Shown one piece after another: positions 1 through 2,898 of a stretch of 33,858 bases of DNA (position 1 is its first letter; every line of letters starts with the position of its first letter). Where the stretch lies: assembly GCA_024641125.1 (NCBI GenBank), contig JAHEDQ010000021.1, positions 1 through 33,858 of the forward strand, in the 5' to 3' direction. Source of the DNA: Candidatus Competibacteraceae bacterium (lineage in GTDB: Bacteria; Pseudomonadota; Gammaproteobacteria; Competibacterales; JAHEDQ01). The notes beneath the pieces were generated by a model. It worked only from the letters and a program-made list of their open reading frames with translations. It was not told the DNA's origin and ran no database searches. The position numbers were made by a program, and so were the translations under genes.

Positions 1-283
1 CATGGGCTTCACCGTGGTGCTGGACCCTGAGTTCAAAATTCTGGGTGTTTTCACGGATGGAGACCTGCGCCGCACCCTGGACGCAGACGTTTCCATCAAG
101 GGCAGCATGGTGCAAACCGTTATGACCACCACCTTCACTGCGGTGCCCCCTGAAATGCTCGCGGCCGAAGCGCTTCATCTGATGGATACACGTAAAATCA
201 ATGCGTTGCCAGTAGTCCACGCAGACGGTACCTTGGCCGGCGCCCTTAACATGCATGACCTGCTGCGGGCAGGCGTCGCGTGA
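1..283 (+). CDS. kdsD: Arabinose-5-phosphate isomerase KdsD, C-terminal fragment (partial at window start)
   Basis: This is the last ~94 residues of a protein whose start lies upstream of the window. The fragment is the end of a CBS-domain pair: GVFTDGDLRR followed later by the terminal motif ALNMHDLLRAGV, which closely matches the end of KdsD/KpsF-type isomerases. KdsD converts ribulose-5-phosphate to arabinose-5-phosphate, the first step of Kdo synthesis for LPS; the catalytic SIS domain would be off the left edge. The ATG at 2 corresponds to an internal methionine in the family, so it should not be taken as the start. The next gene in the pathway (kdsC) follows on the same strand but is separated by a repeat element. 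The KpsF paralogue is an alternative name, but linkage to kdsC and lptCAB favours KdsD. Confidence 0.88.
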   Translation, partial: MGFTVVLDPEFKILGVFTDGDLRRTLDADVSIKGSMVQTVMTTTFTAVPPEMLAAEALHLMDTRKINALPVVHADGTLAGALNMHDLLRAGVA

Positions 284-309
284 CAGCAGCCGTGCGCCGA
301 ATGCCAATG

Positions 310-314
310 AAGGA
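310..314 (+). promoter_or_regulatory. Probable original Shine-Dalgarno of kdsC, displaced by an insertion
   Basis: AAGGA at 310-314 is now 275 bases upstream of the kdsC ATG. If the element at 320-586 is removed, the sequence reads AAGGAACACCAGCATG, which puts this motif 8 bases from the start codon, a normal distance. This is an inference from reconstruction; the motif itself is visible. Confidence 0.5.
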
Positions 315-319
315 ACACC

Positions 320-586
320 AGTGTCCCGCCCCATAAGTTCGTTACGTTGCAGAGCGTCCCAAATCCGCCAATGCAAGGCGCCGATGCGAAGCCATAGCAG
401 GCTCTTTCGAGCAGCGGCAACGCCGCAGTGGTGGTTGTGGGACGGGCCCTTCTGGCGGGGCGAGGAGCGCCCAGGCGCTCGGCGGGCGGGCGAAGCGCTA
501 GACGTGGCTAACGCGAGCGCGCCCAACACCGCGAATGAGCGCTCCTCGCCCCGCTGAAATGCAACGAACTTCTGGGACGGGACACT
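320..586. mobile_element. MITE-like non-coding element with terminal inverted repeats
   Basis: The left end AGTGTCCCGCCCCATAAG and the right end, read on the other strand, AGTGTCCCGTCCCAGAAG match at 22 of 24 positions when continued through GTTCGTT. Inside, GCGGGGCGAGGAGCGC (455-470) has a perfect inverted copy at 539-554, so the whole unit can fold into nested stems. It is 267 bp, has no transposase-like ORF, and shows no clear target-site duplication with these boundaries. The features fit a non-autonomous miniature element mobilised in trans, or a palindromic dispersed repeat. The transposase family cannot be named from the sequence alone. Confidence 0.62.
455..554. repeat. Internal 16-bp perfect inverted repeat inside the element
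   Basis: GCGGGGCGAGGAGCGC at 455-470 and GCGCTCCTCGCCCCGC at 539-554 are exact reverse complements separated by 68 bases. Both arms are GC-rich and lie wholly inside the terminal-repeat element, giving it a second, inner stem. Confidence 0.75.
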
Positions 587-589
587 AGC

Positions 590-1111
590 ATGCAGGACAT
601 ACTGCAGCGTGCGGCACGTATTCGGCTGCTGATTCTGGACGTGGACGGCGTTCTTACTGACGGGCGTCTGTATCTGTCCAGTGACGGTGTGGAAAGCAAG
701 GCCTTCCATACCCGCGATGGGCACGGCATCAAGCTGTTGCGCGAAGGTGGCGTGAGCGTGGCGGTCATTTCCGGACGACGATCCCGGGCGGTGGATCTGC
801 GCATGGCGGAACTGGGGGTAGAGCATCTCTACCAGGGCATTGACAACAAACTCACCGCGCTGGCTGAACTGGTTGCAAGGCTGGATCTCAGATTGGATGA
901 GGTCGCCCACGTGGGAGACGATGTCATCGACCTGCCGGTGATGCGCAAGGTGGGTCTGGCGATCGCAGTGCAGGACGCAAGCGAGTTCGTCAAACGCCAT
1001 GCCCACTGGCAAACGGCAAACGCGGGCGGCCGGGGCGCGGTGCGGGACGCGTGCGAGCTGATACTCGAAGCGCAGGGTAGCCTCGAGGCGCTGTTGGACC
1101 GTTACCTTTGA
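590..1111 (+). CDS. kdsC: 3-deoxy-D-manno-octulosonate 8-phosphate phosphatase KdsC
   Basis: KdsC removes the phosphate from Kdo-8-phosphate in the cytoplasm to give Kdo for the LPS inner core. The 173-residue protein is a cap-less HAD phosphatase: motif I is LDVDGVLTDG with nucleophile D17 and D19, motif II is VISGRRS, the lysine is in the NKLTAL stretch, and the acidic motif is VGDDVIDLPVM. The length is slightly below the E. coli protein (188), the difference being at the N-terminus. The ATG at 590 lies 3 bases after the end of the inserted element, so its present ribosome-binding site would be element sequence (GGGA at 579-582, weak). The stop overlaps the lptC start in TTGA. It lies between kdsD and the lpt genes, the standard gammaproteobacterial order. 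Confidence 0.95.
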   Translation: MQDILQRAARIRLLILDVDGVLTDGRLYLSSDGVESKAFHTRDGHGIKLLREGGVSVAVISGRRSRAVDLRMAELGVEHLYQGIDNKLTALAELVARLDLRLDEVAHVGDDVIDLPVMRKVGLAIAVQDASEFVKRHAHWQTANAGGRGAVRDACELILEAQGSLEALLDRYL

Positions 1112-1677
1112 CTCTGATCCGCACCCTGCTGCCCATCCTCGTTCTGGTACTGCTATCGGCCGGCAGCGGTTGGTATCTGACCCGGCTGGAGGCCAACCTG
1201 AAGGCTGCCAAGACCACAGAGTCAACCGCGCCCCGACTGAAAGGGCGGAATGTGCGGGTCACCGTTCTGAACGACAGCGGGGCCATCGACCATCGGATCG
1301 TCGCCGCCGGCGTGTTCCAGGGTCCGGCCGGCAGCGGAACGGATTTGGTTGCGCCTGAACTAACGCAGTTCCGTGATGGCGCAGTGGTTGCCACGGGCAC
1401 CGCTCTGGCTGGATGGGTGTCGGAGGATCAACAGCTGGTGCGCATGCTGAACAGCGTGGTGTTGACCCATCGATCTTCGGCAGATGGTCTCGTAACCCGG
1501 CTGGAAACGGAGTTTCTGGAGTACGAGCCGAAGCGCGAACTCGTTACCACCGATCGACCGGTTACCATCACCCGGCCCGGGACTCGGGTGGACGCGATTG
1601 GCATGCGGGCGGATCTGGCGGCCGAGAAAACCTATTTGCTCAGCCACGTGCGAGGTACCCATGAACAGAATCCATGA
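1108..1677 (+). CDS. lptC: LPS export system protein LptC
   Basis: LptC is the inner-membrane-anchored periplasmic part of the Lpt bridge that receives LPS from LptB2FG and hands it to LptA. The 189-residue ORF has one N-terminal membrane segment (about residues 4-23, rich in leucine and valine), then a periplasmic beta-rich domain in which LPS/OstA-like features such as LETEFLEYEP and DRPVTITRPG can be seen. The start is a TTG that shares TTGA with the kdsC stop, which implies translational coupling; no in-frame ATG precedes the membrane segment. Length agrees with E. coli LptC (191). It overlaps the lptA start by 17 bases. Sequence conservation in this family is low, so identity rests on topology plus position. 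Confidence 0.9.
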   Translation: MTLIRTLLPILVLVLLSAGSGWYLTRLEANLKAAKTTESTAPRLKGRNVRVTVLNDSGAIDHRIVAAGVFQGPAGSGTDLVAPELTQFRDGAVVATGTALAGWVSEDQQLVRMLNSVVLTHRSSADGLVTRLETEFLEYEPKRELVTTDRPVTITRPGTRVDAIGMRADLAAEKTYLLSHVRGTHEQNP

Positions 1678-2173
1678 ATGCAGTGTGTTTATCATACTTG
1701 CGCTGGCCCTGCCGGGCAGTGCCTCGGCCCTGTCGACGGATCGCGATCAACCGATCAATCTGGAAGCGGATGAGGCCGAACTGGACCAGACAGAAGGTGT
1801 CAGCACCTATGTCGGTAACGTGGTGGTGACCCAGGGCTCAATGAAGGTGGAATCGGATCGAATGGTGGTCCATCTGGAGGACGGCGAAATCGATCGCATC
1901 GAGGCCACCGGCGCCCCGGCGCGCTTCAGACAACGGCCGGATGGGAAAGACGCCGACGTCCTCGGTGGCGCCAGCAAAATGGATTATCTTGCTGGCCAGT
2001 CCATGGTGATTCTCACCGGCGATGCCTGGGTAGAGCAGGCTGGGGACATCATCCGTGGGGCGCGGATCGAATACTCGCTGACCGAGGACCTGGTCAAGGC
2101 AAAAAAGGGGAGCCGCGAGTCGGACCGGGTGCGCATCACCCTGCAGCCACGCAAATCAGACAAAGACAACTGA
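1661..2173 (+). CDS. lptA: LPS transport periplasmic protein LptA
   Basis: LptA forms the periplasmic bridge carrying LPS from LptC to LptD. I place the start at the ATG at 1661, not the longer ORF start at 1598, because it is followed directly by a signal peptide (basic MNR, hydrophobic [10 protein letters not shown], cleavage near A23 after SASA). The 170-residue product has the OstA-like opening [17 protein letters not shown] and the repeated short beta strands of the family, including [17 protein letters not shown]. The C-terminus is basic (QPRKSDKDN). It overlaps lptC by 17 bases and touches lptB with TGATG, so the three genes are probably one translationally coupled unit. Confidence 0.93.
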
Positions 2174-2898
2174 TGACCGAACTCAGCGCGAAAGGTATCG
2201 CCAAATCCTATCGCGGTCGGCGGGTGGTCGATGGGGTCACAATTTCGGTTAAGAGTGGCGAAATAGTGGGCCTGCTTGGACCCAATGGTGCAGGCAAAAC
2301 GACAAGCTTCTATATGATGGTGGGCCTGATCGGGTGTGATCGGGGGCGCATCCTGCTGGACGGCCGGGACATCACCAACCTCCCCATGCACAGCCGTGCG
2401 CGCCTGGGTCTGGGGTACCTTCCGCAGGAGCCTTCGGTTTTTCGCAAGCTGTCAGTGCTGGACAATGTGCTTGCCATTCTCGAGACCCGGCCGGATCTGC
2501 CCCGTGCGGAACGGCGCGCGGCCGCCGATGCGCTGCTTCAGGAGTTACACATCGAGCATCTGGCCGCCAACCCGGGCCTCAGCCTGTCCGGTGGCGAGCG
2601 CCGCCGGGTCGAGATTGCCCGTGCCCTGGCCGCCAATCCCCGGTTCATCCTTCTGGATGAGCCCTTCGCCGGTGTCGACCCCATATCGGTACTCGATATC
2701 CGCCAGATCATCCAACATCTGTGCGAGCGCAACATCGGCGTTCTGATCACCGATCACAACGTACGGGAAACGCTGGCAATCTGTGACCGGGCCTATATTC
2801 TGAGCGCCGGACTTGTGATCGCCGACGGGCGGGCCGACGACATTCTGGCAAATGATCAGGTCCGCGAGGTTTACCTGGGCAAGGATTTCAAACTCTGA
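2173..2898 (+). CDS. lptB: LPS export ABC transporter ATP-binding protein LptB
   Basis: LptB is the cytoplasmic ATPase that powers extraction of LPS from the inner membrane with LptF and LptG, which are not in this window. The 241-residue protein has all ABC motifs: Walker A GPNGAGKT (36-43), Q-loop YLPQEPSVF (Q85), signature LSGGE (138-142), Walker B FILLDEP with catalytic E163, and the switch histidine H195 in ITDHNVRET. The length equals that of E. coli LptB (241). Its ATG shares one base with the lptA stop. No strong Shine-Dalgarno is visible, consistent with coupling to lptA. Confidence 0.97.

Follow-up and report, generated by a model that had tools for sequence, protein, structure and literature searches.

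The spacer between kdsD and kdsC, near the beginning of the window (the whole stretch of 33,858 nucleotides that was analysed), contains a 265-bp gene-less repeat lying between the Shine-Dalgarno sequence and the ATG of kdsC, a lipopolysaccharide gene. Judging from its letters, this repeat (positions 321–585) almost certainly has ends of the IS630 (Tc1/mariner) type. Of the explanations considered for the whole arrangement, we lean towards one in which an IS630-type MITE, a known kind of element, was mobilised in trans and is looped out when translation of kdsC is initiated.

The genes in this part of the window are arranged in the order kdsD, kdsC, lptC, putative lptA, lptB and rpoN (table 1). 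The gap between kdsD and kdsC is 306 nt, compared with 5–34 nt in the 29 related genomes that had both genes on the fetched stretch, and therefore none of these relatives carries the element at that spot; the nearest relatives available for the comparison are about 65% identical in KdsC. The comparison bears out a preliminary description of this DNA, which had placed an inverted-repeat element between the Shine-Dalgarno sequence and the start codon. As that description had also stated, excision of 267 bp gives AAGGAACACCAGCATG, in which AAGGA and ATG are separated by 8 nt.

Table 1. Features of the kdsD-kdsC junction, of the inserted element and of the neighbouring genes (positions are those of the window).
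Feature	Position	Strand	Evidence and remarks
kdsD 3' part, CBS domain	2–283	+	PF00571, E 6e-15; ORF; gene truncated by contig start; stop TGA at 281–283
Native Shine-Dalgarno of kdsC, AAGGA	310–314	+	Now 275 nt from ATG; anti-SD pairing -5.7 kcal/mol
Presumed TA target duplication, left copy decayed to CA	319–320		Inside CCAG 318–321; compared with CTAG-bounded copies
IS630-type MITE, 265 bp, gene-less	321–585	+	Repeat family, fold and ends; no Pfam match in ORFs across the element
Left terminal inverted repeat	321–352	+	Inverted-repeat analysis
Inner palindromic arm A	355–444	+	Palindrome 355–374/425–444; fold
Inner palindromic arm B	455–554	+	Palindrome 455–478/531–554; fold
Right terminal inverted repeat	554–585	-	Matches IS630 transposon ends
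GGGA, candidate substitute Shine-Dalgarno	579–582	+	Buried in terminal stem; unpaired probability 0.00
Presumed TA target duplication, right copy	586–587		Inside CTAG 585–588
kdsC, intact	590–1111	+	NF007019, E 2.2e-64, over equivalog cut-off
lptC	1108–1677	+	TIGR04409, E 1.5e-33
lptB	2173–2898	+	TIGR04406, E 8e-115

The inverted repeats described earlier at 320–343 and 563–586 were recovered, and their arms were found to reach 320–352 and 554–586 (33 nt, 85% complementary). Over 26 end bases, with CCAG and CTAG included, the left and right terminal repeats are equal at 23 and differ at 3. IS630-family elements duplicate TA. Both ends of the full copies of the repeat family are bounded by CTAG or a close variant of it, and the focal boundaries appear consistent with insertion at CTAG and duplication of TA, the left copy being CA here. 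The earlier reading as a mobile repeat was supported, and only its limits were refined, from 320–586 to 321–585 with a flanking TA and a decayed TA. Because the family copies have CTAG boundaries, the flanks would rejoin at TA, and the empty site would then read AAGGAACACTAGCATG. The core of the element showed no trace of a transposase gene, and the Pfam search of the ORFs across it found no protein family. In the kdsC copy, arm B is inverted relative to the other aligned copies, as if the palindrome had been flipped.

Searching the host genome with the element, a check proposed in the preliminary description, gave 74 BLAST matches, the nearest full-length copy being 78% identical. The inner motif of the terminal repeats matched 64 times in the same genome, against 2 matches for a reversed control pattern. 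By sequence similarity, then, the element is a member of a dispersed repeat family with dozens of copies in its own genome. Twenty elements with both ends could be extracted; the full ones measure 271–272 bp including both CTAG, and shorter ones go down to 62 bp. The outer repeats are of three kinds (GTGTCCCGTCCCATAAGTTCG, GTGTGCTGTCCCGTAAGTTCG and GTGTCATGAGTCAGCAGTTCG) and are attached to one common inner part.

Several copies had unusual arrangements. One element of the same genome (L003, G000:C125, 1501–1771) carries two kinds of terminal repeat, one at each end, and may be an intermediate of end exchange. At loci L065, L070, L078, L085 and L006, different repeat types lie end to end and share a CTAG, as if by nested insertion. 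Minimal versions of 62 bp, made up of the terminal repeats only, were found at L057 (1474–1535) and L015 (946–1007). In several cases (L006, L009 and L096) the TAG stop codon of a neighbouring gene is supplied by the CTAG of the element end.

The terminal repeats match the ends of IS630 transposons, and the element was therefore classified as an IS630-type MITE; it is short and gene-less, has terminal inverted repeats and occurs in multiple dispersed copies. One contig of the same genome (C318) holds a relic of an IS630 transposase (NF033545, E 2.3e-45) with one internal stop codon. One end of this relic, CTAGTGTGCTGTCCCGGAAATTCG, equals a type-2 repeat at 22 of 25 bases, and the other end matches poorly. 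By eye, the far end of the relic lies where an LptF/G-like gene has its stop codon, and on the same contig a MITE of another repeat type is followed immediately by the relic (L085, 1099–2440). When the C318 transposase was used to search the class, other genomes yielded relatives with identities of up to 66%. One of these genomes (G145) has three transposase copies, and the copy that was fetched (L179) is intact and has the ends (C/G)TAGTGTCCTGTCCCGTTAATTCGT. These ends are equal to type-1 repeats at 20–21 of 25 bases, and to the focal right terminal repeat at 20 of 25. Presumably, an IS630-family transposase mobilised the element in trans. The DDE_Tnp_1 transposases of the same genome were considered as a source and rejected, as they had no convincing matching ends, and an origin of the IS5 type, suspected from the CTAG, was dropped once the IS630 ends matched.

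ISY100/IS630 has been placed in Tc1/mariner (PMC2170065). The element shares with IS630 insertion sequences and MITEs the TA/CTAG boundaries and matching terminal repeats, and is likewise gene-less and shorter than 300 bp, but differs from them in that a two-armed core is kept between genera while the terminal repeats change. QMITE1 and QMITE2 of Coxiella burnetii are also gammaproteobacterial MITEs whose transcripts fold very stably; QMITE2 has flanking repeats of 7–9 bp and QMITE1 of 2–4 bp (WW, SS or GAAG), the likeness being drawn from their description (PMC5896051). In Ca. Thiomargarita nelsonii, again a gammaproteobacterium, MITEs interrupt key genes, and one type with TATA ends was compared with IS630 by its authors (PMC4853749). 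The hupL MITE of that organism, likened here by description, has 10-bp direct repeats, unlike the kdsC element (PMC4853749).

Related inner parts were detected in other genera when 369 genomes of the class were searched. Most members of this superfamily are 254–273 bp long and keep the fold, whereas their outer repeats differ (e.g. TAGTACTCCGTCACAG, CTAGTGTACTGCGTCACTC and CTAGTGTCCTGTCTCC). Among genomes, the core pattern matched only MAGs of uncultured Gammaproteobacteria, one of them labelled Thiotrichales, and it had no match among viral contigs. The exact terminal-repeat pattern had no match in other genomes or viral contigs, and a search of a plasmid collection also gave none. A literature search by the repeat letters returned chance matches only, and no description of the element was found in Rfam or in the openly accessible papers searched. 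In two different MAGs the same insertion lies 19 nt upstream of the gene for a DinG-like helicase (L150, 1663–1935; L152, 4652–4924), and it was therefore probably inherited in common.

The fold common to the superfamily consists of a long terminal stem and two arms. As single-stranded RNA, the kdsC element is predicted to fold at -154.7 kcal/mol (z -8.1 relative to shuffled sequences), with a terminal stem of 33 nt that includes mismatches and contributes about -41 kcal/mol. When 12 members were aligned, 89% of the cells were paired and two-sided changes occurred at 73 of 109 pairs; because the structure was derived from one member, the paired fraction is favoured more than the number of two-sided changes. 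Two-sided changes were seen in 228 cells, compared with 74 in shuffled alignments, and sliding the partners abolished the signal. These compensatory changes may stem from selection that favours the folded form; alternatively, imperfect palindromes may have been corrected repeatedly as the DNA was replicated.

With the flanking mRNA included, the stem is predicted to close at A320-U586, leaving 314–317 open. We propose that, once transcribed as part of the kdsD-kdsC mRNA, the element pairs with itself and forms a single branched hairpin of very high stability. The stem base would then have the native Shine-Dalgarno sequence (310–314) on one side and the AUG at 590 on the other, with about 8 nt between them, and ribosomes would initiate with the stem looped out, reusing the native site. 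In the predicted structure, 5 nt before and 3 nt after the stem separate AAGGA from the AUG, equal to the native 8 nt. There is a precedent in phage T4, where structure between the Shine-Dalgarno sequence and the AUG reduces the spacing from 22 to 5 nt in gene 38 and from 27 to 11 nt in gene 25, giving a working distance (PMC3014915). Those structures are short, native and experimentally tested, whereas the present one is predicted only, belongs to a 265-bp mobile element and must span 275 nt rather than 22–27 nt. The conservation of the fold across genera with two-sided changes, and the closure of the stem at 320/586, also speak for looping out.

Other features of the model count against it. 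Within the Shine-Dalgarno sequence, G312-G313 are weakly held by C318-C319 in a helix of 2 bp; part of the AUG (U591-G592) is paired to bases of the coding region; and the outer stem has mismatches. In addition, kdsC may be dispensable, which would remove the need for efficient initiation. The preliminary description had called kdsC normally essential; this is too strong, at least for E. coli, if the title of Sperandeo 2006 ('Non-essential KDO biosynthesis...'), as it appears in the reference list of PMC10448790, is taken as a guide. Initiation across a looped-out element at a split ribosome-binding site is put forward as a tentative model, with a little less than even support.

The position of the insertion at kdsC is not unique, as four other starts are also abutted by such sequences. 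The copy at copA (HMA domain) has the same layout, with GGAA just before the element and the ATG 1 nt beyond its end, and this parallel favours looping out. A superfamily element in another gammaproteobacterial genus (L098, G131:C65, 1498–1768) stops 3 nt short of the dnaX ATG; there, no obvious Shine-Dalgarno sequence lies upstream of the element, which does not fit looping out. In a TelA gene (L142, G000:C77, about 2637–2655) the ATG directly follows a single end remnant of 17 nt, and in a DUF427 gene (L147, G000:C357, about 2600–2640) it overlaps a single-end remnant. Elements ended within 6 nt of a start in 4 of 22 cases, whereas uniform placement in the same gaps predicts 1.9 (P 0.06); the gene starts were called by a simple codon-usage method, and one of them was corrected by hand. 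These numbers limit the claim to start-adjacent sites not being avoided, with no clear preference for them.

The single-end remnants at TelA and DUF427 bear on a second reading, rather unlikely for kdsC itself, in which the native site is unused and the right terminal repeat supplies the Shine-Dalgarno sequence GGGACGGGA (574–582, about 7 nt before the ATG). Its predicted anti-SD pairing is stronger than that of the native site (-6.9 versus -5.7 kcal/mol), but the pairing needs a bulge, and type-3 repeats have no such motif. In the full element, moreover, GGGA is fully paired within the terminal stem, which would have to be opened, for example through the action of ribosomal protein S1 or the passage of ribosomes coming from kdsD. 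The two remnants have no partner arm to hide the repeat, and they may be element-derived ribosome-binding sites, judging from their position; such a supply of the site is more natural for them than for a full element. The preliminary description had proposed GGGA as the new initiation signal and had held the insertion to be tolerated only with such a signal or with harmless loss of coupling to kdsD. The first option stays alive through the remnants, although the motif is buried at kdsC, and the pair of options omits looping out, which fits better.

It is improbable that kdsC is weakly translated or silent and is tolerated because another phosphatase substitutes. The reported non-essentiality of Kdo genes in E. 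coli, mentioned above, would allow this, but only one KdsC match was found in the genome. Furthermore, kdsC is intact and scores over the equivalog cut-off although the insert has already diverged; with the terminal repeats differing at 3 of 26 bases, the intact gene suggests that it has been maintained since the insertion took place. Transcription of kdsC-lptCAB from a promoter carried by the element is very unlikely. According to a report on Coxiella, one QMITE2 copy there contributes the -10 element of a promoter (PMC5896051), but a scan of 250–700, covering the sigma-70 type only, found no sigma-70-like site and no terminator. Finally, it is barely credible that the spacer arose as an artefact of assembly or that it is a structured RNA of the kdsC operon that is not mobile. 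The genome assembly is fragmented and the contig begins within kdsD, a mere 320 bases before the element, but the kdsD and kdsC flanks belong to one conserved operon, which makes a false join unlikely, the many repeat copies are distinct (the nearest full-length one at the 78% identity given above), the element is absent from the spacer in the 29 relatives, and Rfam covariance-model searches were negative, for 280–640 even with E allowed to reach 1.

For the superfamily of about 270 bp as a whole, a wider proposal can be made, which we consider unlikely in its full extent. The folded two-armed core would be conserved while lineages swap ends and thereby track different IS630 transposases. By looping out of the mRNA, the fold would make start-adjacent insertion tolerable, so that the elements could propagate in ribosome-binding sites, acting as spacers that are self-removing when the mRNA is translated. 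What would be new, if shown, is that the ends change while the fold is conserved, and that this fold renders start-adjacent insertions harmless. The combination of conserved fold and changing ends raises the question of what selects a MITE core. If the split-site model is true, the secondary structure of an element decides whether an insertion between Shine-Dalgarno sequence and ATG is damaging or neutral, and this would explain the survival of such elements in compact operons.
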